From a virus, in IMG/VR virus record IMGVR_UViG_3300005882_000416, positions 1 to 20,140 of that record: 20,140 bases of DNA, one strand, 5' to 3'. Numbering within the stretch: the stretch's first letter is position 1; every line of letters starts with the position of its first letter. A model generated the notes under the pieces. The model did no database searches. It had not been told where the DNA came from and saw nothing but the letters and a program-made list of their open reading frames with translations. The position numbers were made by a program, and so were the translations under genes. Shown here in pieces: positions 9,823 through 20,140 of this stretch.

Positions 9823-10602
9823 TTACACCTCCATCTCAATCTGCGGATAAATATCATCTGCCTTTAGCTGTTCGTAAATGAATAGTCTGCCTTTTTGAGT
9901 CCACTTAGTATGAACCTTAGTATGTTCATAACCCTTACTATCCTCGTAAACATGAGTATTTGTTCTCGTATAGCCTTTGCAAGCATATTTTTGATACAAG
10001 AGCCAAGTATTACTTTGTTTAAATTGAATACCATTTTTATGAAGATATTCATTCATCCTTCTAGCACTCCATCCATAATCTTTAGCAATAACAGAAATAT
10101 TTACGGCATCTTTACATTTAAGAACCACATCATAATATGTAGCCTTAGGTTTCATCTCTGCAATTTGCTGTTGTCCAATAGCAAAAGCTGCCTCAAGAGC
10201 CTTATTCTTTTCCCGCTCTTCTTTTAAAGCAGTAAATGCAGCAATTGCGACATCCGGGTTAGCAATCAACTCTGCAGTTGCATATAAACCAAACTTACGA
10301 ATTGATGGAAGAACTTCGCTTGTAACCCAATGCTTAAAGTTTTTAGCCTTTGGCATTTTGCTTGAGAGAATAAGACTGTAAAGCCCTGATTCATTAATGA
10401 CAATCGTTTCCTTATTTTGATTACCATCAAACAACATCACTTTGGTTCTGTCTTCTTCATCAACATGACGGTTAATATCTCGACTACCATTTTGGTACTT
10501 GAGAATCCCTGCTACATCCTTTCCTACAAAATATGGTGTAGCATCAATTAACATTGTTCTTACAGCGCCGAACTCTTCATTTTTATAAATTTGTAATTCC
10601 AT
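9823..10602 (-). CDS. Phage antirepressor, Bro-N plus KilAC
   Basis: A 259-residue two-domain antirepressor. Residues 1 to about 110 form a Bro-N domain (AVRTMLIDATPYFVGKDVAGIL, VINESGLYSLILSSKMPKAKNFKHWV, VLPSIRKFG). A short coiled stretch (EEREKNKALEAAF) links it to a KilAC domain from about 145 to 250 (YYDVVLKCKDAVNISVIAKDYGWSARRMNEYL, with a helix-turn-helix look). Such proteins relieve phage repression or regulate early genes. No partner repressor is visible in the window. AAGGAGG lies eight bases before the ATG. A small GGAGGTC-AAT-CCTCC type hairpin just upstream, at about 10625-10639, could compete for this region. Confidence 0.92.
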   Translation of the reverse strand: MELQIYKNEEFGAVRTMLIDATPYFVGKDVAGILKYQNGSRDINRHVDEEDRTKVMLFDGNQNKETIVINESGLYSLILSSKMPKAKNFKHWVTSEVLPSIRKFGLYATAELIANPDVAIAAFTALKEEREKNKALEAAFAIGQQQIAEMKPKATYYDVVLKCKDAVNISVIAKDYGWSARRMNEYLHKNGIQFKQSNTWLLYQKYACKGYTRTNTHVYEDSKGYEHTKVHTKWTQKGRLFIYEQLKADDIYPQIEMEV

Positions 10603-10665
10603 CAGAATTACCTCCTTAATTTTATTTGGAGGATTGACCTCCTACCTAGTAGCCTTGAGAGAAGG

Positions 10666-11214
10666 TCAAATCTGACGGTTTTGAAAAATTTCTCGAAGTT
10701 TTTTCTCTGCCCTTTTTAATTTCTGCGTGATATTGTTTTCATCAGCTCCAATTGAAGCAGCATATTCACGAATTGGGATGCCATCTATACGAACAGCAAT
10801 AAACATGTCTGCCCAGTCTTGTTTTTTACCAAGTGCCTGACGTATCCTTTGACATACATCTTCATACTCATCCTGGTAATTACGCTCTATTTTTTGAGAA
10901 TTATCGGCAAAAGTATCCATGACATCCGTATCATCTTCTGATTCATCATCCTTGCGATATGGAGTCTTTGGTGTACCTAAATGTCTATGATATCTACGCC
11001 AGTGGTTGTATTCCTTACTGTTCATGAGATCGAACATTTCCTGCACCGTTTCACAGCGCTTTACTTCTACTTTCTTTTCAGGCTTTGCCTCTGCAAGACG
11101 TTGTTCATAATCGATGTCCAGCATGATGCTGTAATCTCCGTCTGGAATTTCAATAGTGGTGTAGCTCTTGTGACCATTTTTGATGTTGTCTTCATATAAA
11201 ACTCGAATCTTCAT
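10666..11214 (-). CDS. Sigma-70-like HTH regulator, first gene of early operon
   Basis: A 182-residue protein. The first 40 residues are beta-rich (TTIEIPDGDYSIMLDIDYEQRL), then VKRCETVQEMFDLMNSKEYNHWRRYHRH, an acidic linker with many Asp/Glu at about 89-100, and a C-terminal sigma region 4-like HTH (DMFIAVRIDGIPIREYAASIGADENNITQKLKRAEKKL, about 136-173, quoted in parts). Relatives occur in phages and conjugative elements of Clostridia as sigma-factor-like proteins. The frame is open up to 11292, but the extra stretch is a terminator hairpin. The ATG at 11214 after AAAGGAA is the likely start. It follows a structured leader with an attenuator and probably leads the early operon. Confidence 0.8.
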   Translation of the reverse strand: MKIRVLYEDNIKNGHKSYTTIEIPDGDYSIMLDIDYEQRLAEAKPEKKVEVKRCETVQEMFDLMNSKEYNHWRRYHRHLGTPKTPYRKDDESEDDTDVMDTFADNSQKIERNYQDEYEDVCQRIRQALGKKQDWADMFIAVRIDGIPIREYAASIGADENNITQKLKRAEKKLREIFQNRQI

Positions 11215-11227
11215 AAAGTATTCCTTT

Positions 11228-11245
11228 CCGTCCTGGCATTGACGG
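11228..11245 (-). promoter_or_regulatory. Hairpin just upstream of the sigma-like gene
   Basis: CCGTC and GACGG form a five-pair stem with an eight-base loop on the minus strand, ending a few bases before the AAAGGAA binding site. It may modulate access of ribosomes, or belong to the larger structured leader. Confidence 0.4.
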
Positions 11246-11253
11246 CAGAATAC

Positions 11254-11289
11254 AAAAAGAGCCTGTGGTTTCAGATACACCACAGACTC
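11254..11289 (-). terminator. Strong terminator/attenuator in the leader
   Basis: On the minus strand GAGTCTGTGGT pairs with ACCACAGGCTC over 11 positions (one T-G pair) around a nine-base loop, followed directly by TTTTT. It is one of the strongest terminators in the window. It lies only about 40 bases before the ATG of the first early gene, with no gene upstream of it until the 46-aa protein. A terminator in that position points to attenuation or antitermination of the whole early operon. Confidence 0.85.
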
Positions 11290-11292
11290 CAC

Positions 11293-11521
11293 TTGTCCTA
11301 AAAATGGGCATAGGAAAGTACGGTGGGTGCATCTTCATTCCAAACACAGCCTTTATTACTGTGTTCTGAACTCTTATGCATCCCGCCGTCCTAATGCGCA
11401 TCTCGGACATTGAGATATTATTTTGTTGAGCGATAACCGCTCTAGATAAAACGTCTCCCTTAGGGAGGATAGGCAGGCTGATTGTTCAAATCTGTCACTA
11501 CCTATAAATTAAAATAAGAAC
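11293..11521 (-). ncRNA. Hairpin-rich non-coding leader, candidate structured RNA
   Basis: No gene is convincing here. A 72-codon frame overlaps it, but it has no binding site and runs through the hairpins. On the minus strand I see CTCCC-TTA-GGGAG (11455-11467), GAGCG-GTTAT-CGCTC (11428-11442) and AACACAG with CTGTGTT (11343-11365), leading into the attenuator. The unusual density of stems suggests a structured leader RNA. No known riboswitch class was recognised and no clear promoter was found. Confidence 0.45.
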
Positions 11522-11662
11522 TTACTTCTTCTTGTTGGGTCTACTTTGACTTAAAGCACTGCCAGCAACTGATTTGGATTTCTTGCTATAACGTCCATCA
11601 CTAAGAATTTTGCTTGCTTTTGATGCAACTCTTTTAGATGTTTGCTTCTTATTTTTGCTCAT
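11522..11662 (-). CDS. 46-aa basic Ser/Lys-rich protein
   Basis: A 46-residue, highly basic protein. It has a GGGAGG eight bases before its ATG, which makes it a credible gene despite its size. Its core reads KQTSKRVASKASKILSDGRY, then KSVAGSALSQ, and it ends in KKK. I recall similar small proteins with the ASKxLxDGR and SVAGSALSQ words scattered in mobile elements and prophages of both Firmicutes and Enterobacteria, without a function. The composition (Lys, Ser, Ala; one acidic residue, an Asp) suggests nucleic-acid binding, but that is a guess. It lies alone between the helicase terminator and the early leader. Confidence 0.72.
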   Translation of the reverse strand: MSKNKKQTSKRVASKASKILSDGRYSKKSKSVAGSALSQSRPNKKK

Positions 11663-11663
11663 T

Positions 11664-11792
11664 TTATTTACCTCCCTTCCAATCGTGTTCCAAAGCTATT
11701 ACTTTGTTACTTCTATTATCGCTCATTGCACGTTTTAAAAATATGGATGTAGTAGGGATGAAATATGGGTAAAGTATGGAACTTAAAAAGAC
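11664..11792 (-). promoter_or_regulatory. Upstream region of the 46-aa gene
   Basis: This region lies between the helicase terminator and the 46-aa gene. It holds three TATGG words on the plus strand (11742, 11764, 11775) and a GATAAT-like -10 near 11718 on the minus strand without a good -35. A 20-codon frame (11664-11726) beginning MSDNRSNKVIALE ends one base before the ATG of the 46-aa gene, but has no ribosome binding site. It is regulatory at best. Confidence 0.3.
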
Positions 11793-11825
11793 AAAAAAAT
11801 AGCCCCCTGCATTACTGCAGGAGGC
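11793..11825 (-). terminator. Strong terminator ending the HamAB-like operon
   Basis: GCCTCCTGCA and TGCAGGGGGC pair over ten positions (one T-G pair) around a four-base GTAA loop, then TA and seven T residues on the minus strand. It follows the helicase stop by fewer than 20 bases. It insulates the defence operon from the phage operon downstream. Confidence 0.92.
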
Positions 11826-11842
11826 ATAATAGAATTTCAGAA

Positions 11843-14458
11843 CTAATCAATGAAAAGTTCTGGCATATTAAATTGTATATCTTTTGTTTCAGTTTCGACA
11901 CCAATATTGCCGCATTCAAGTATAGAACGATGTATCCTTAATTCACCGTCAACCTCTGTTAAATATTTATTTCTATTAGATGGTTCTTCTATAAATTTTG
12001 ATGATTCCCGAGAAAAACCACTTTGTTGCAGAAAAATGGTCAGTGGATTTGTTGTCCCATATTCTACAAACTCATACCAATCATTTTGAAAATGATCCAC
12101 TTGATGAACATTCTTATATTCAAGAGAGAATTTCCTGAAATAATTTGAAATGCTAAACAGAAGCACATTTTCAATCACACCAAGTGTTTCTGCAATAATA
12201 TAATTTTTATGAAGTTTAGATTTTTTGTTATATGTATCAGCCAACTTCATATTACCAACCCATACACCCGTCTCTGGATTACTTTCTTTATATTTAAGTG
12301 CATAATAAATAATCTGATTGAGACCATTTCCTCTAATCCATCTTAATAGAATAACAGCATACCACCTAATAACAGAATCTTCCCTATAAGTACCAGCTTT
12401 CCCTATTGTTCTTTTTTCATAGATATCCCACTTGAATACTTTCCTCAGCTTCATGAGAAAATCAACAAGTTCTTCAAAATCAACCTCATCATTTTCTCCT
12501 GTCACCTTTGGATATTTTTGGCCACTTTCCACAAGTTCTCTCAAGTTAACCACTTGATCATATGAAAAATTAATATCGTCACTGGTCTTTTCTACAGGAA
12601 AAATTTCTCTGATTTTAGACTCCTTATGTTCATCTAAAAATGGTGAGAATGCTTCTCGTATTGGCGTAATAATACCTTCGGAAATATCTTTTGTAAGAAT
12701 CATTGCAAATTTTCGCAATGCTTCAAAGTCCTTTGACGTTGTTGCTTCACGAACCGTAGTTAATTCTATATCTCCACGAATTAAATCCTCAATAACTAAG
12801 TTCAAATACTTACTATTATCTTTCAAATTAATCGAAACTTCCTGTGGTGGAACATCATTCTGTAATAAGTTGATGTACTTTTCTGTTTTAAGATTATCTT
12901 CCATACGAACTAAGAACACATTTCCATATAAATTGTATTTAATACGACCAACTCGTCCTACAAGGTTTCTAAATTCCACCTCGTCCATATTAGAATTCCC
13001 ATTTTTGTAGCTTGTAATAAACAAATTATCCGCTGGAAGATTCACTCCCTCTACAAGTGTGCTTGTGCAGAATATAGTTCTTAAAACACCATCCACAAAA
13101 CTTTTCTCAATTCTTAGGCGAATATTAGAGGGAAGATATCCAACATGATAAGCAATACCTTTTAGTATCAAGTCTGCAAGATAACAATCGCTATGTACTT
13201 CCTTACGAATATCTTTTGATAAAGCTACGAGTTTTTCATCATTTTTGATAGGAAGGTTCTTTGCATACTGAACAGCATAATCTACAACTTTTTGTCTCGA
13301 ATTGCAATAGATGATGTTTTGCTGTGTGGCTCCTACTCTTGTAACAATCTCACTTAGTTCATCTTGTTGCGGAATATTAGCAATATATGAAAGTGATTTT
13401 GACAAATCATCATAAAAATATGCTCTACCCTCACATAAATCTAAAAAGTATTTAAATTGACATACTGGTGTATATTTTGACGCTAATTTTTTAATTTCAT
13501 CCATTTGAATATTGGGAATTAAGCTCAGGTATACTTCAGGATTCGGAATATTTGGTGAGGCAAAAATAACTGTCGGCATCTCTTTCATCTTTGATAACTG
13601 AGCAACTACCTTATAATAATAGGTACTACGTCCACCCCTATCTGATATTTTATGAGCCTCATCTATAAACAGAAAATCGATTTTTATTTTTGGTATACCT
13701 ATCATCATATGAAGCAGTCGTTCAGGCGTCATAACAAAAACAAAATTGTGTTCTTGTTGCAACACTATATCTCCTGATGAACTAACAACACGATAATTTG
13801 TCTGCTGAAGCTTTTCCTGAAGACTTCCAATTATATTACTTCGAACTTCATTTATTAGAGCTTTTGTGGGTACCAAGATAGCATAATTTTTTATTGAACC
13901 ATTCTCAATTTGCTGTTTAAGATATGTTTGTACAACAAATGATTTACCCATCGATGTAGGACCAGAATAGCTAAAATATTTACTGTCCAAGCTATCATAT
14001 ACGTCCTTTTGATCATGAAAAAAATAACTGTCCTCATGGCCAGGGATCTGCAGTGTAGATTTATCATATTCAAAATATAAAGCATCCAATACATCAGCCG
14101 TCTGAAATCCTTCAACATAAGTAGATCGCAAACCACGATAATTTCCAACCGTTGAAAGTATAGATCCAAGGTAGTACTTTACCGATAAATCATCTGGATA
14201 AACTATACTCAATAAGATTATAAGTTCTTGTCCCCACAGCTTATGCCTATCTCTCTTCTCTGGTATAGTAGACTTTGCTAATAAATCTGCAAATCGTAAA
14301 GCATCTTTTATATTTATTTCTTTTTTCCGTTTTTGAAGCTTAAAGATGAATATCGAATAATTATATAGCAACGCCTCATAAATCTCGTTTAAATATTCAT
14401 TCTTATCAATATTTATGTATAACGCTTCGGCAAGCGTTTGGTTTCTTGGAATCTGCAT
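11843..14458 (-). CDS. hamB: HamB/AbpB-like superfamily 2 defence helicase
   Basis: An 871-residue SF2 helicase. Motif I is SGPTSMGKS at 165-173, motif Ia VPTKAL at 196-201, motif II DEAH at 266-269, motif III-like FASPN at 299-303, motif V CTSTLVEGVNLPA at about 464-476 and motif VI NLVGRVGR at 498-505. About 165 residues precede the core and 360 follow. The size, motif style and partner gene fit HamB of Hachiman or AbpB of the AbpAB anti-phage system, in which the helicase controls the partner effector on sensing aberrant DNA. The ATG at 14458 lies eight bases from a GGAGG; a TTG two codons upstream is less well placed. The HamA-like stop is two bases upstream, so the pair is translationally linked. 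The subtype call is from memory of motifs, not from a search. Confidence 0.75.
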   Translation of the reverse strand: MQIPRNQTLAEALYINIDKNEYLNEIYEALLYNYSIFIFKLQKRKKEINIKDALRFADLLAKSTIPEKRDRHKLWGQELIILLSIVYPDDLSVKYYLGSILSTVGNYRGLRSTYVEGFQTADVLDALYFEYDKSTLQIPGHEDSYFFHDQKDVYDSLDSKYFSYSGPTSMGKSFVVQTYLKQQIENGSIKNYAILVPTKALINEVRSNIIGSLQEKLQQTNYRVVSSSGDIVLQQEHNFVFVMTPERLLHMMIGIPKIKIDFLFIDEAHKISDRGGRSTYYYKVVAQLSKMKEMPTVIFASPNIPNPEVYLSLIPNIQMDEIKKLASKYTPVCQFKYFLDLCEGRAYFYDDLSKSLSYIANIPQQDELSEIVTRVGATQQNIIYCNSRQKVVDYAVQYAKNLPIKNDEKLVALSKDIRKEVHSDCYLADLILKGIAYHVGYLPSNIRLRIEKSFVDGVLRTIFCTSTLVEGVNLPADNLFITSYKNGNSNMDEVEFRNLVGRVGRIKYNLYGNVFLVRMEDNLKTEKYINLLQNDVPPQEVSINLKDNSKYLNLVIEDLIRGDIELTTVREATTSKDFEALRKFAMILTKDISEGIITPIREAFSPFLDEHKESKIREIFPVEKTSDDINFSYDQVVNLRELVESGQKYPKVTGENDEVDFEELVDFLMKLRKVFKWDIYEKRTIGKAGTYREDSVIRWYAVILLRWIRGNGLNQIIYYALKYKESNPETGVWVGNMKLADTYNKKSKLHKNYIIAETLGVIENVLLFSISNYFRKFSLEYKNVHQVDHFQNDWYEFVEYGTTNPLTIFLQQSGFSRESSKFIEEPSNRNKYLTEVDGELRIHRSILECGNIGVETETKDIQFNMPELFID

Positions 14459-14460
14459 AA

Positions 14461-15921
14461 TCAATACCTCCCACTCAGCATCTCAGAAACAATGCTATTT
14501 TTCTCAGTTGGAGCGTCATTAAACGGTACAACAAATAAATAAAAATTATAGCCAGATAAACCATTGTCATGAATCTTCTTCTCAATATATGGCTGTAAAG
14601 AAACAATATCATTTTGCATTTGAATCTTTACTGCAGTACGATATTTACTATTATCAGTTTCTATGTAACCTAAAGAAAGAGTATATCCAAGAAAGACTCC
14701 GTATGCCATATCAGGTTTAGGAACATTAGCTTTTCTCGGTAACAAAAGATCCACCATATAATTAGTAGTATCAGGATCATAGATATTATTATGCGTAGTA
14801 TTTTCCACCATCTTCAGTTCAATATCACTGTTTTTTTCAATATCAATAATTTTATCAAAAGCTCTATCTATACTTGCTGTCAAATCACCTAGAATATCAG
14901 ATGCACCAAATACAAGCTGATGAAATAACTGCCCATTATTATCTACTGCTAATAAATGAACGCCATCACTTTTACTGCAAATCCTTCCTCCAAGTTCATC
15001 TATTTCAATCTTGCTCATTATCTTTGGAGCATTTAGTTCCTGTTCCATAAAAACATATAAAAGCATCTCTCCAAGAACAGTTTCAGCACACGTTCCATAG
15101 GCTTGCATAAATTTAACTAATGCCTGTGATCCGATGGAAGCACTTTTCCCAGAAGTTGTATATCTATTAGCTTTCGCTCTAGAAAATACATAACTTCCTA
15201 TGTTATCTACAAGGTATTCTTTCAATGCTCTAAATTTGAATTTGCAGTTATTTATATCGACACCATATATTTTAACATATGATGGGTTAGTTAGTCCGGA
15301 TATAGTTAGTGAGGATACTTGATCAAATACATGGTTGAATATTGGATCACTAAGCGTTTTCTGCAAAGGTAAGTGCACTTCAGCTTTAACTTTTTCAAAA
15401 AACACAGGTTCAGATGAGGAATTAAAAGACTCTACATATTTTATGCCAATTTCTTTTATGGCTTCTTTACATTCTTGATTTTTGACCTCAATTATCACAA
15501 AGTAAAAAACAGATGCCAAAAGAGCAGATAAACTGAATGTCGAATTATTTAAGATATTATTTTTTTCATAGCCTTTAATATACCCAACCATGGTATGATC
15601 TTGAATAGTCATGTCCTCACGCAAAACATCTTTAATAGCGCGAACTACTGATTCACGTTGGCTATCTTTAATCTGTGGAATTACACTGGTTTGGAATACT
15701 CGCTCTGCATCTTCAAAAGATGTGTTCCGGGCAGCAGTAATAACATCTGGAGGTACATTATCATGCCCACTTTTAAGATGTCCCGGAAGGGAACTATCAT
15801 AAGATTCTGTAGTTTGAGAATACGTTGAAAAGATTGCACCGCATAACAAATCATTCGTAACCTTTTGGTTCCGAGCCTGATACAATATTTTCATAAGAGT
15901 ACCAAAACATAGTCGTTTCAT
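14461..15921 (-). CDS. hamA: HamA/AbpA-like DUF1837 defence protein, long N-terminus
   Basis: A 486-residue protein preceding the helicase. The C-terminal half has the outline of the DUF1837/HamA domain: YGTCAETVLGEMLLYVF at 275-291, APKIMSKIEI at 298-307, KSDGVHLL at 317-324, HQLVFGASDILGDL at 334-347 and an ID.AFDKI helix. In classical HamA the strand corresponding to VFGAS carries G-E-S/A-K, part of a PD-(D/E)xK nuclease site; here neither Glu nor Lys is present. The first 250 residues are additional: a helical opening with FGTLMKIL and NDLLCGAIFSTY, then SLPGHLKSGHDNVPPDVI. That region is much longer than in small HamA proteins. GAGGAGG lies seven bases from the ATG. By position this is the effector or DNA-end-binding partner of the helicase. 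The DUF1837 assignment is moderate. Confidence 0.62.
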   Translation of the reverse strand: MKRLCFGTLMKILYQARNQKVTNDLLCGAIFSTYSQTTESYDSSLPGHLKSGHDNVPPDVITAARNTSFEDAERVFQTSVIPQIKDSQRESVVRAIKDVLREDMTIQDHTMVGYIKGYEKNNILNNSTFSLSALLASVFYFVIIEVKNQECKEAIKEIGIKYVESFNSSSEPVFFEKVKAEVHLPLQKTLSDPIFNHVFDQVSSLTISGLTNPSYVKIYGVDINNCKFKFRALKEYLVDNIGSYVFSRAKANRYTTSGKSASIGSQALVKFMQAYGTCAETVLGEMLLYVFMEQELNAPKIMSKIEIDELGGRICSKSDGVHLLAVDNNGQLFHQLVFGASDILGDLTASIDRAFDKIIDIEKNSDIELKMVENTTHNNIYDPDTTNYMVDLLLPRKANVPKPDMAYGVFLGYTLSLGYIETDNSKYRTAVKIQMQNDIVSLQPYIEKKIHDNGLSGYNFYLFVVPFNDAPTEKNSIVSEMLSGRY

Positions 15922-16191: not shown

Positions 16192-18804
16192 CTAAAAATC
16201 TTCAAGCAAATTCTCTAGTTCACATCTAAACTTATCCTGACCTTTTAAGAGAATTCCACTTTTCAGATATTCAAAATACTCTGTATATCCGTTTGGACTT
16301 AAAAAATGGAAAATGTATTTTTCATTAATACCGTCCTCTTCCATTTTTTTGTTTAATCTTTCAAAGTGTTCTTTTGCATATTTATATTTTGCTTTGTTTT
16401 CATCGCTATCATCTTTATCAGCTTTTATTTCTGTGACTAAATAATAATCGTACTCATCACTTGAAACTTTAATGAAGAAGTCTGGATTGAAACTCTTTTG
16501 AGAGTATTTTCTTGTTTTAGAAGAAGACCCGCCATACTTCAAACTATAATCTATACTATAGAACCCTCTATCCCTAGATTTAACCCAACTTTCAACTAAA
16601 CCTGCAACTTCTTGTTTACATAGGTAATCAACAAAGTTTCTTTCAGGATCACTACTCGTTAAAACAAGGTTCATAGGCGTTTTAAATAAAAATTCATTCT
16701 TTTCTTTCAGAGCACTTCTTGGAAGACTCTCATCTTCAATCACCTCAGAAAAAATTATTTTTTGTTTTTCAGAATTAATCTCTTTTTCATGATTATTCGT
16801 ATAGAATATTGAGCAACCTCTTCGAAGATTACCAATACCTGTGCTATCATTAGCCATATTAAGAGTATTGATTTTATATGGATCATTAACTTTTAATTTT
16901 GGAACAATTGATTTCTTTTTCTTACGTAGTAAAGTTGAAAATGACTGAAGTATTTTATTGGCGTTTTTATCAATTAACAGCTCACCACTAATCCCAACTT
17001 TCTCCATTGAAGTACGAATAATTTTTTCTATTGTTTCTCTTGGCGGTAGTGAGTATTTGCTATACTCTTCATCACCAAGTTTCAATATAGTACCTTCCCA
17101 ATCTCTAATTTGAAACTCTTCGAAAATTTTATCAGTAATTTCTTCAATGGTCCAAGTATTATATTTTACAGAGTAATTTCGTTTACTTAAATTACCATCA
17201 ACAATTGATTCATAAGATGTATCTTTCTTTGCCTGTATAACTTGAGAGTCTAGTTTTATACCTTCTTTTTTCAAACGGGAATAGTCAAACACTGCTTTCC
17301 TTTTCTTTTGCTCAACTTCTACTTCATCCTTAGAATAGTTTAAATTATATACTTCAAAATTAAATTTTGCTCGTTCTTCCGACTTTAAAATAATACTACT
17401 TAATCTTGTTTCTATCTCCAGTACTTCCTCAACTAATGACTTAATGTTTTTACTCCAAGAATCATGATTAAAGATTATGACTTTAGGCTGTGGCGACGCA
17501 TACTCTTCGGGAATTCTTAGGCCTCTTCCAAGTACCTGAGCAATCAACAATTTTGAGTTAAATGCTCTATCTTCCCAGGGAACAATCTGGAAAACATTCT
17601 TTACATCCCAACCTTCAGTCAACATTGAGACTGATATTACCCATTGAACCGGATCACTCTTATCATCTACAGTCTTTAACTTAGGAAGATTAGCTGCATG
17701 ATCTTTATGAGATGTAACAATTAATACTTTTTCTTCAATAACATCTCTAGTTGCATTTTCAGTATCAATCAAAAAATCTACAAGATCATCTTTTAACGCT
17801 TTTGCTTTAGAAATATCCTTTGTGATCAAAATAGACAGAGGTTTAATTTCTGGATATTGGTCAGAATTATTCAAGTGATTTTGATATATCTTTTGAAATT
17901 TCTCAGAGATTCCACCACTATCATCTTTTTGAACGTATTCAATATTTTTTACCACTCTATCTTCTATAGCTTCTCTTAATGAATACCTGAAAATTACATC
18001 ATTAAAATATTCATTCTCATGATATGCTGTCCCAGTAAACCCCAGTATATACTTAAAACCGTAATCCGAGTCGAGCAAAAACTCTTTCCACTTTTTAATC
18101 CCTTTACCTTCATTACTGCTCACAGAAATGCTTTGAGGTTTATTGAAAATATGATGTGATTCATCGTTTAATACCAATACTCGCCCACCATTATTAATTA
18201 AACTATCTTCAATTGATGAACCAGTTCTTTCATAAACTGCATGAATATTCTCAACACAGACATCTCCATCCTTGATTGTTTTATTAGCGTCAATAATTCT
18301 TGGATTCTTATAATGAGCATCATCCGGAATAGTAGCTCTTAGCCTAGCATTCCCACTTAGCTCTTCAAATTTTTCCTTTAATCCCGCTTCTATTGTTAAC
18401 GAAGGGCATAGCACAAGCACCTTGTCAACTAATCCTAACCCCAGCATAATTTGAGCAACTCCATAAATTACGTATGATTTACCAGTTCCAGTAGCTAAGT
18501 CAATATTAGCAAACAATTTATTGGGAATTTGTATCATAGACTTAAGGTTAGCCAAGGATGTGTACTTTAACTGTAACTCATTATTTTTCTGAAAATTCTC
18601 TTCAAATAAATCTTCAATTGATTTATACCTACCAGATGCAAGATATATAATCGAACTCTTAATTGCAGCTTTCTGGTACTCTCTATTACCACATAGTCTT
18701 TCGATAAATAAATTCCACTCATCCAGACGCAGTTTTGTATGGTCAAAATTATTATTAACTTTCAAAACAAGATCTTTTTGCTTGTAAATCAAAATATCTT
18801 GCAT
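16192..18804 (-). CDS. res: Type III restriction enzyme Res subunit
   Basis: An 870-residue Res subunit, the translocating ATPase and nuclease of a type III restriction-modification enzyme. Residues 104-110 are Walker A (ATGTGKS), 213-218 motif II (NDESHH), LGFTGTAYHENE is motif III, and VLGRGLRIPEEYA in the middle is motif VI. The C-terminal nuclease shows NPDFF at 773-777 and EIKAD at 792-796, the PD...ExK site, so it appears active. Res with Mod cuts DNA with two unmethylated head-to-head sites after ATP-driven communication. The ATG shares one base with the Mod stop (TAATG) and follows a GGAGGTGA, so the two are co-translated. Length is slightly under the usual 900-1000 residues but no gap in the motifs is seen. 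Confidence 0.95.
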   Translation of the reverse strand: MQDILIYKQKDLVLKVNNNFDHTKLRLDEWNLFIERLCGNREYQKAAIKSSIIYLASGRYKSIEDLFEENFQKNNELQLKYTSLANLKSMIQIPNKLFANIDLATGTGKSYVIYGVAQIMLGLGLVDKVLVLCPSLTIEAGLKEKFEELSGNARLRATIPDDAHYKNPRIIDANKTIKDGDVCVENIHAVYERTGSSIEDSLINNGGRVLVLNDESHHIFNKPQSISVSSNEGKGIKKWKEFLLDSDYGFKYILGFTGTAYHENEYFNDVIFRYSLREAIEDRVVKNIEYVQKDDSGGISEKFQKIYQNHLNNSDQYPEIKPLSILITKDISKAKALKDDLVDFLIDTENATRDVIEEKVLIVTSHKDHAANLPKLKTVDDKSDPVQWVISVSMLTEGWDVKNVFQIVPWEDRAFNSKLLIAQVLGRGLRIPEEYASPQPKVIIFNHDSWSKNIKSLVEEVLEIETRLSSIILKSEERAKFNFEVYNLNYSKDEVEVEQKKRKAVFDYSRLKKEGIKLDSQVIQAKKDTSYESIVDGNLSKRNYSVKYNTWTIEEITDKIFEEFQIRDWEGTILKLGDEEYSKYSLPPRETIEKIIRTSMEKVGISGELLIDKNANKILQSFSTLLRKKKKSIVPKLKVNDPYKINTLNMANDSTGIGNLRRGCSIFYTNNHEKEINSEKQKIIFSEVIEDESLPRSALKEKNEFLFKTPMNLVLTSSDPERNFVDYLCKQEVAGLVESWVKSRDRGFYSIDYSLKYGGSSSKTRKYSQKSFNPDFFIKVSSDEYDYYLVTEIKADKDDSDENKAKYKYAKEHFERLNKKMEEDGINEKYIFHFLSPNGYTEYFEYLKSGILLKGQDKFRCELENLLEDF

Positions 18805-20140
18805 TACTTCACCTCCCTTTTAATATTAAAAATCTCTGTAAAATCATTACCATATATATCAGTATAAATCACCATTAACTTATCACCTAAACCTTTAATA
18901 TCTAAGGTAATGCTTAATGCGGGTTTATTCTTGGACCTTAGTTCTTCTCTAATTTCATCATCATTCTTATCCTTACCTTTTTTTTCACTATTGCCAGGTA
19001 ATAAATCCTCGGCAAAGTAAACGTCATCTAGCTCAAAATGTTTTCCATTGTAGTCTTTATCAATATATACTGCAGACAGCGATTCAAAATTTTCCAAAAT
19101 AACACCTTTATCGTCTTTTCCGTACTGGCTTTTAAATTCCTTTATTTTAATTTCTATATTTTTCTTGCTTACTTTGAATTCTGTCTTCACTTCAGGTTGT
19201 CTAATAAAATGGAAGCCAACAACTTCATCGATACTATTTAAATTCTTCTTGCTTTGTGGTTGTCTCAATTTGTGAAAAGGAATTTTATGAAGTTCTTTGA
19301 TTACTTGATAAGGTACCTTTAGAAAATAATATCTTATTCCATCTATCTCATAATAATCAGTCAGGAAATCTACATAGTTTGCAGGAGCAACGATATAAAT
19401 CCTACCATTAACCCTATTCCCAATGACAGAGTTAATGTTCTCTAAATAATCAACATCTATTGAAGAATCCTTATATTTTCTATAATCAAAAATCTTAACT
19501 GGATATTCAGATTTTTTTCCATCAAATTCCAAACCGGCTAAATCAAAATCAGCGATTTCGATTTCAAACAGCCCAGATATAAATTGCTTGTATTCTTGCC
19601 ATTCAAGTTCAAAGGCTTTTTTTAAGTCATAAACCCCTAATTGTGCAGTAACAAAAGGTTTGGCACTTTTACTATATTTTTTCATAGTTGAAATCAGATC
19701 TTTCGACTCTGCAATTCTTAGTAATCTCTTTTGGGTTGTAAAATAGGATAACTTCCCGATATCACATGTTATCCAACGTCTTCCAAGTTTTTCTGCAGTT
19801 GTAGCTGTAGTACCTGAACCGCCAAAAAAATCTAATACTAAGTCTCCTGGGTTTGTGGAAGCCTCAATAATTCTTTTAATCAATGCTTCAGGCTTTTGCG
19901 TTGGATACCCAGTTCTTTCCAAAGAAGTTCCTTGAACAAACGGAATATTAAAAACCTCTGTTGGCTTACCTTCTTTCATATAAGCTTTTCTTATTGTTCC
20001 ATCTGAGTTATTATATATTTTATATCTGCGACCGTCTTCATCAATTTTATCATACCTTTTAACAGCTTTTTCATCATAATCTATTAATGTTGCTTTAGGA
20101 TTGAAGAAGTAATTATCACTTTTTGTATAGAAAAAAATAG
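18804..20140 (-). CDS. mod: Type III DNA methyltransferase Mod subunit (5' end missing)
   Basis: The C-terminal 444 residues of Mod, the sequence-recognition and adenine-N6 methyltransferase subunit; the start and the expected DPPY motif lie outside the window. The frame is open to the edge, beginning IFFYTKSDNYFFNPKA. Internal ATG at 19979 is not the start. Seen here are YPTQKPEALI near 19907 and the SAM motif DFFGGSGTT near 19832, which in this order mark a beta-class enzyme, then CDIGKLSYFTTQKRL. The rest, about 300 residues, includes the part that contacts Res. Site specificity cannot be read from this. The stop overlaps the Res start by one base. Confidence 0.95.
   Translation of the reverse strand, partial: IFFYTKSDNYFFNPKATLIDYDEKAVKRYDKIDEDGRRYKIYNNSDGTIRKAYMKEGKPTEVFNIPFVQGTSLERTGYPTQKPEALIKRIIEASTNPGDLVLDFFGGSGTTATTAEKLGRRWITCDIGKLSYFTTQKRLLRIAESKDLISTMKKYSKSAKPFVTAQLGVYDLKKAFELEWQEYKQFISGLFEIEIADFDLAGLEFDGKKSEYPVKIFDYRKYKDSSIDVDYLENINSVIGNRVNGRIYIVAPANYVDFLTDYYEIDGIRYYFLKVPYQVIKELHKIPFHKLRQPQSKKNLNSIDEVVGFHFIRQPEVKTEFKVSKKNIEIKIKEFKSQYGKDDKGVILENFESLSAVYIDKDYNGKHFELDDVYFAEDLLPGNSEKKGKDKNDDEIREELRSKNKPALSITLDIKGLGDKLMVIYTDIYGNDFTEIFNIKREVK

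Follow-up and report, generated by a model that had tools for sequence, protein, structure and literature searches.

A conserved leader RNA of phage early operons as a candidate two-state switch at the Shine-Dalgarno

What does a heavily structured leader RNA do at the head of a phage early operon? The question is raised by the 20,140-base virus record IMGVR_UViG_3300005882_000416, the whole of which was analysed and is called the window here. A structured leader is encoded on its minus strand at 11416-11210, before a sigma-region-4-like gene. The original prediction, made from the sequence alone, had placed a cluster of stems before an early operon, and such stems are present on the minus strand: the 276 nt of 11490-11215 (minus) fold at -100.6 kcal/mol compared to -69.9 +- 5.3 kcal/mol in 200 dinucleotide shuffles (z = -5.77), none of which was as good. 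Two genes on the same strand follow the leader.

10666-11214, minus strand: first gene behind the leader, 182 aa, with a sigma-region-4-like C-terminal part (phrog_1740 RNA polymerase sigma factor, E 8.8e-6)
9823-10602, minus strand: second gene, an antirepressor with Bro-N and KilAC domains (PF03374, E 1e-37; PF02498, E 6.6e-26)

The phrog_1740 match agrees with the earlier claim that a sigma-like regulator is the first gene beyond the leader. Against NCBIfam sigma70-ECF the same protein reached E 2.5e-4, below the family cut-off, and it had no Pfam match at E up to 0.001. A promoter between 11254 and 11214 had been named as counter-evidence to the original prediction; a consensus scan listed no promoter-like site in 10500-12000 of the window. 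Upstream of the relatives, 8 of 50 upstream clusters reached 9 of 12 promoter matches compared to 9.9 +- 3.1 after letter shuffling, and we therefore claim no promoter. The family-wide part of the leader begins at about 11416. It is preceded by 5' hairpins at 11467-11455 and 11442-11428, whose sequence is common to only part of the family. A second conserved, hairpin-capable stretch (ACAGAUU...AAUCAGCCUGCC) lies at about 11465-11510 (minus), between a small ORF and the leader, again in part of the family. Upstream of the RNA there is also a variable hairpin; its z was < -2 for 27 of the 61 distinct upstream sequences, including that of the window, which is suggestive only.

Relatives were fetched by means of the first gene's protein, giving 38 loci from viral contigs and 42 from genomes, some perhaps the same prophage twice; four further phage records were fetched by blastn with the leader itself. 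The leader was present in 67 of the 84 other loci (blastn, E up to 1e-5), namely 63 of the 80 protein-fetched loci and the four leader-fetched records. Phage records matching the leader include Streptococcus phage Javan630, Erysipelothrix phage phi1605 and Ruminococcus phage NatCom_38182. The remaining 17 of the 80 had no blastn leader match, some of them having little upstream sequence. A pattern scan of viral contigs yielded 41 stretches. We built a covariance model of the core, R1, of 163 positions from 32 sequences; it scored 171.9 bits on the window, which is itself among the building sequences. R1 matched 17 of 391 genomes in the class of Lacrimispora defluvii, 2 of 398 in that of Heyndrickxia camelliae and 21 of 250 in that of Megasphaera micronuciformis (centre genome counted each time), in searches run with stricter filters that can miss weak members. 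We take these classes to be Clostridia, Bacilli and Negativicutes. One genome with a protein relative (L066) had no R1 match at E up to 1. Plasmid records gave no match to the window's leader, and one record was matched by a divergent member. Three leader copies lie within 100 kb on contig C1 of genome G953 (1613131, 1667990 and 1711141), perhaps belonging to adjacent prophages that carry different variants.

The original prediction had recognised no known RNA class, and Rfam searches of the window and of 20 member loci likewise gave none. No Rfam 15 family reached its gathering score in the window, and in the 20 member loci none overlapped the core at E up to 1. Loosening the limit to E 10 brought up 13 matches in 10500-12000, all below gathering score and none inside 11416-11210; seven of them overlap a terminator behind the upstream HamB gene. 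In the passages searched of three RNA-motif surveys (PMC11109978, PMC8632094 and PMC2864571), and in titles and abstract openings from a wider literature search, the leader was not found described, coverage that leaves room for an earlier description. Judged by sequence comparison, the leader is a real and widespread RNA family without an Rfam match, carried by phages and prophages of several Firmicutes classes.

The RNA is better conserved than the protein that it precedes. In alignment A1, which holds 37 of 69 distinct leaders, the RNA cores of L208, L209 and L218 are 87, 86 and 76% identical to the window's, and their complete downstream proteins had no BLASTP match to the window's protein at E up to 10. 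Only complete proteins were counted as dissimilar in this way, those of L126, L145 and L185 running off contig ends. Among the 66 other members, 23 downstream proteins had no BLASTP match or one with E > 0.001, some of these being partial or, as in L240, another gene. In L026, the RNA is 90% and the protein 62% identical. Profile searches with ten diverse downstream proteins matched seven to phrog_11138 or phrog_13787, the former also being the best family of the window's protein. Five of the seven (from L208, L209, L085, L263 and L249) also match a sigma-factor family, with all NCBIfam scores below cut-off. The downstream proteins of L218 and L255 had no profile match, and L240 has a Rha antirepressor directly behind the RNA. 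By these profile and BLASTP comparisons, the common theme behind the RNA is phage early regulators, and the RNA outlasts the protein. The earlier idea of feedback by the sigma-like protein is weakly disfavoured by the BLASTP-dissimilar proteins of L208, L209 and L218 behind 76-87% identical RNA; the evidence against it is only weak because L208 and L209 share phrog_11138 with the window's protein.

The elements of the leader, from its 5' end, are as follows.

11254-11416, minus strand: conserved RNA core and terminator, the R1 region (171.9 bits; blastn homologues in 67/84 loci)
11388-11408, minus strand: P1 hairpin, GUCC/GGAC, with the palindrome AUGCGCAU in its loop (11401-11394); 99.3% paired, two pairs changed on both sides
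11377-11391, minus strand: strand A, GGACGGCGGGAUGCA, comprising the P1 3' strand and the P2 5' strand; alternative partner of C by the A:C swap test
11337-11371, minus strand: P3 hairpin; 11 of 12 pairs changed on both sides, own arms beat swapped arms (0/1000)
11328-11334, minus strand: core strand AGAUGCA, proposed pseudoknot partner of the terminator loop, overlapping strand B (family swap test; window register by eye)
11321-11332, minus strand: strand B, AUGCACCCACCG, the P2 3' strand; across 37 sequences 10 of 12 bases do not vary and two are nearly invariant
11301-11310, minus strand: conserved UGCCCAUUUU, with little or no pairing in the model (A1; similar stretches in divergent members)
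11259-11290, minus strand: P5 terminator hairpin, loop UGUAUCU at 11279-11273 (folding; 91.9% paired in A1)
11254-11258, minus strand: terminator U-tract (U5), which in some relatives has a further partner in A residues ahead of the start codon
11241-11253, minus strand: strand C, GUAUUCUGCCGUC, predicted to hide the Shine-Dalgarno via D or to pair with A (C:D and A:C tests)
11218-11232, minus strand: strand D, GACGGAAAGGAAUAC, holding the Shine-Dalgarno AAAGGA (11227-11222); GAAAGGA is invariant in 37 sequences

Across the 37 sequences of A1, the 42 pairs of the named structure are paired in 93.6% of 1532 cells, and sliding the partners by 1-3 columns left only 34-45% paired. Nineteen of the 42 pairs changed on both sides, with 65 doubly changed cells compared to 14.9 +- 3.2 in shuffles (0/500 as high). 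P3 supplies most of this covariation, and P1, the pseudoknot and the terminator stem contribute two both-side-changed pairs each; the element that we named P4 has two pairs and is weak. P1 is GUCC/GGAC in most members and GCCU/AGGC in L085. Its GUCC strand can also pair with a distal GGA in 44 of 56 distinct rows (6/1000 swaps as good), with the distal segment delimited by a simple rule that does not work for every row, whereas the local P1 forms in 54 of 56 (0/1000). Stem conservation had been put forward as the check on the leader reading, and the stems proved both conserved and covarying, which did not refute it.

Of the 67 members chosen for the model alignment, 65 entered tests in which each arm was paired with its own partner or with swapped partners, L244 and L246 being excluded because their Shine-Dalgarno is not recognisable. 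These tests ignore the tree, so that figures such as 0/2000 are not probabilities. For P2 (A:B) the own pairing averaged -10.25 compared to -8.47 when swapped, with 0/2000 swaps as good by energy and 35/2000 by run score. The terminator loop pairs with the core directly before strand B, forming a pseudoknot (own -7.56 versus swapped -5.04 kcal/mol, 0/2000, 65 members). Its partners covary: GAAGAUG/CAUCUUC in most members is replaced by CGAUG/CAUCG in L085, GACGAUG/CAUCGUC in L255, AGAAGU/ACUUCU in L242, AGAGAU/AUCUCU in L245 and GGAAA/UUUCC in L257. The usual register of the family is broken in the window, where a register shifted by two bases, read by eye, would pair UGUAUCU with AGAUGCA. A clear pseudoknot is absent in L240 and L238.

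Near the 3' end of the leader, 40 bases separate the end of the P5 hairpin with its U5 from the ATG at 11214, in line with the earlier claim of a terminator about 40 bases from the first ATG. The consensus scan did not list P5, probably because its 9-nt loop exceeds the scan's loop limit of 8. P5 probably terminates transcription. A terminator hairpin is missing from five members (L263, L264, L266, L269 and L270), in which the core and C:D are nevertheless kept and A:C complementarity is at its longest. In these five, control by the leader could only be translational. On the comparative evidence, the Shine-Dalgarno hairpin and not the terminator is the more general element, the terminator being optional. 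Of the original prediction, the structure is upheld and gating of the operon is likely, and the terminator in the part of the gate is not supported in that form.

The region around the Shine-Dalgarno has two competing pairings. A C:D hairpin follows the U-tract, and in some relatives it is lengthened by pairs between the U-tract and A residues ahead of the start codon. Own C and D arms paired at -20.5 compared to -15.9 kcal/mol for swapped arms (0/2000, 65 members). The strongest pairing tested was that of A with C, at -26.8 compared to -21.8 kcal/mol (0/2000, 65 members). As a control, A against 40 bases upstream had no own-arm advantage (-9.34 versus -9.99 swapped). The A:C helix is 14 bp in the window, 15 bp in L098 and 17 bp in L263. 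In 46 of 55 distinct A/C pairs it beats all 300 letter shuffles, as it does in L017, whose A and C are identical to the window's. The pairings are weaker in L256, L135, L255 and L076, and L245 fails the swap test in substance, with a weak A:C (22/300 shuffles as good) and hardly any C:D. As A cannot pair with B and C together, A:B with C:D and A:C are mutually exclusive, giving the leader a two-state anatomy.

Nearest-neighbour energies, computed without pseudoknots, place the closed state lower in 56 of 65 members, by a mean of 7.0 kcal/mol (sd 7.0) over all 65. The window's minimum fold is -85.8 kcal/mol compared to -74.7 kcal/mol with A:C forced; the run to be forced was chosen automatically, which affects these energies, and in the window the choice missed the native C:D (forced -75.7), while the minimum fold holds the native one. 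In L218, L031, L254, L238 and L085 the A:C-forced fold has the energy of the minimum-energy fold. Forcing A:C frees the Shine-Dalgarno only partly, with 3.9 of 7 bases unpaired compared to 2.2-2.5. Since the closed state is usually lower in energy, opening needs a driver, either a trigger or a kinetic route.

A candidate for such a trigger is the P1 loop: in 67 of 67 members its sequence includes a perfect palindrome 6 nt or longer. Counted by distinct loops, the palindrome occurs in 27 of 27 compared to 3.9 expected from letter shuffles. Control segments gave 0 of 43 for terminator loops and 1 of 29 for the stretch before B. Six central hexamers occur (UGCGCA, UGGCCA, AGCGCU, GGCGCC, UUGCAA and UACGUA), and the mean self-duplex energy of the loops is -14.3 kcal/mol compared to -5.4 (sd 3.3) in shuffled loops. 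Neighbouring loop bases change together, as from GCGC to GGCC, and so cannot be pairing inside one hairpin. The simplest reading of the palindrome, as the loop sequences suggest, is a loop-loop homodimer of two RNA copies, with a DNA dyad as the alternative. We also considered pairing of the palindrome with the conserved UGCGC stretch and rejected it on inspection, as the palindrome varies (UGGCCA, UUGCAA, UUACGUAA) and the stretch does not follow.

Comparison across the family establishes a conserved leader, covariation of P1, P3, the pseudoknot and C:D, and a competing A:C complementarity; from these we infer that C:D blocks translation and that A:C opens the site. We propose, with a probability of about 0.6, that the leader is a cis-acting two-state RNA switch in the 5' leader of a phage early operon. 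In the closed state, A would pair with B, the core would fold and the terminator hairpin would dock its loop into the core. Any RNA polymerase that read through would make the C:D hairpin hiding the ribosome-binding site, so that the regulator gene would be off twice over. In the open state, A would leave B and pair with C; D would then be unpaired and its Shine-Dalgarno accessible, so that the sigma-like regulator and the antirepressor that follows could be translated. This mechanism is likely in outline. As to the trigger, we lean towards an RNA-RNA contact via the palindromic P1 loop, the main alternative being a ligand or a protein. A more specific and quite doubtful version is that the leader counts its own transcripts: P1 loops would kiss and, above a threshold, A:C exchange between copies would open the Shine-Dalgarno. 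If this were true, stray transcripts in a lysogen would stay silent and a burst of early transcription would commit the prophage to induction.

A metabolite or ion riboswitch, in which the core would be an aptamer whose ligand stabilises A:B and turns the gene off (or leaves it on in the ligand's absence), is possible though unlikely. At the level of sequence, a conserved aptamer-like core is indeed joined to an expression platform; the many invariant unpaired bases, the pseudoknot and the typical dual platform suit this reading, as does RNA identity that stays high while that of the protein falls, as in L026. Against it, the downstream genes examined are phage-regulator-like or unidentified and none is metabolic, and an aptamer has no need of a palindromic loop in every member.

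Activation in trans is a further possibility that we would not favour. The short terminated RNA would use its A to pair with C of a read-through mRNA and open the Shine-Dalgarno, the palindrome starting the contact. It draws on the presence of A in the short RNA and of C only in the read-through mRNA, on the strength of A:C and on the palindrome in all 67 members; the five terminator-less members, which would make no short RNA, argue against it. The model is IsrK of the Salmonella prophage Gifsy-1, which is described as having a terminator with read-through and alternative mRNA structures, one translationally inactive, in an operon that holds the antirepressor-like anrP and is activated in trans by the short RNA (PMC4825925). 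An antirepressor likewise follows in the window, and directly in L240. IsrK is the closest functional analogue, sharing a prophage leader RNA, a terminator, two alternative structures and an antirepressor-like gene in the operon. In IsrK a long-range helix joining leader and orf45 marks the inactive state (PMC4825925), whereas here the long-range A:C is the proposed active state. The leader differs from IsrK in its covarying core, terminator-loop pseudoknot, palindromic loop and Firmicutes setting. The isrK family, for which an Rfam model presumably exists, was absent from the Rfam matches of the window and 20 member loci, and no homology was detected.

Other known RNAs resemble the leader in part. 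The C4 RNA of phages P1 and P7 is a structured phage RNA tied to an antirepressor gene, and represses ant as an antisense RNA. The leader shares the link of a structured phage RNA to an antirepressor and differs from C4 in the antisense repression; the C4 model RF01695 had no match in 10500-12000 at E up to 10. One survey lists C4 from Proteobacteria and phages (PMC2864571). The DUF2800 RNA (RF02960) gave a weak match in one of 20 loci, that of a divergent member, just downstream of the core (L244, 1673-1798), at 31.5 bits compared to a gathering score of 60.2. In lambda cIII mRNA an early phage regulator is translated from one of two alternative mRNA structures. Translation from alternative structures is alike here, the phages are unrelated, and cIII mRNA to our knowledge has no terminator, pseudoknot or palindromic loop. 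GOLLD and ROOL are far larger RNAs. These bacterial structured RNAs are reported to form homo-oligomers (PMC12286853), whereas dimerisation of the leader is predicted from its palindrome.

Leader RNAs of the put and EAR kind serve processive antitermination. A leader of this kind, bound by polymerase or another protein, or one through which the sigma-like product regulates its own gene, would fit the position at the head of an early operon, the terminator at the leader's end and the sigma-like first gene; also in favour are several BLASTP-dissimilar downstream proteins that still share phrog_11138 with the window's. We consider these readings improbable, given the three complete proteins without BLASTP match behind 76-87% identical RNA, the five members with no terminator to bypass, and the covarying C:D and A:C, which they leave unexplained. 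That the conservation serves DNA (an operator or origin) or a hidden peptide is scarcely credible and largely refuted by compensatory changes in separated helices, although the P1 palindrome could be a protein-binding dyad and the window has a 72-codon ORF across part of the region; we rejected a leader peptide because in 17 of 37 sequences the core ATG frame runs into a stop codon within 8 codons, while in 8 it is open to the leader end.

Upstream of the leader, a basic ORF of 46 aa (P0001; 11662-11522, minus strand) ends 106 bases before the conserved RNA. Among the 107 loci with 400 or more flanking bases, 44 have this ORF within 300 bases upstream; P0001 has no significant Pfam match. The original prediction had held that no upstream gene needs the terminator, a statement at odds with this same-strand ORF. 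Further upstream, the window carries same-strand defence cargo at 11843-15921 and 16192-19979 (minus). It comprises Hachiman HamA and HamB (PADLOC E 1.2e-231 and 0), together with a type III restriction-like enzyme accompanied by part of a methyltransferase. A terminator-like hairpin of 10 pairs lies behind HamB at 11825-11802 (minus). Two other loci examined carry different genes at this spot, and from these gene contents it may be a cargo site.

Because the predicted states pair different named strands, the switch is testable by a few compensatory mutations, and the palindrome makes dimerisation testable as well. An RNA family that is kept while the downstream protein diverges would be a missing layer of control in temperate phage induction.
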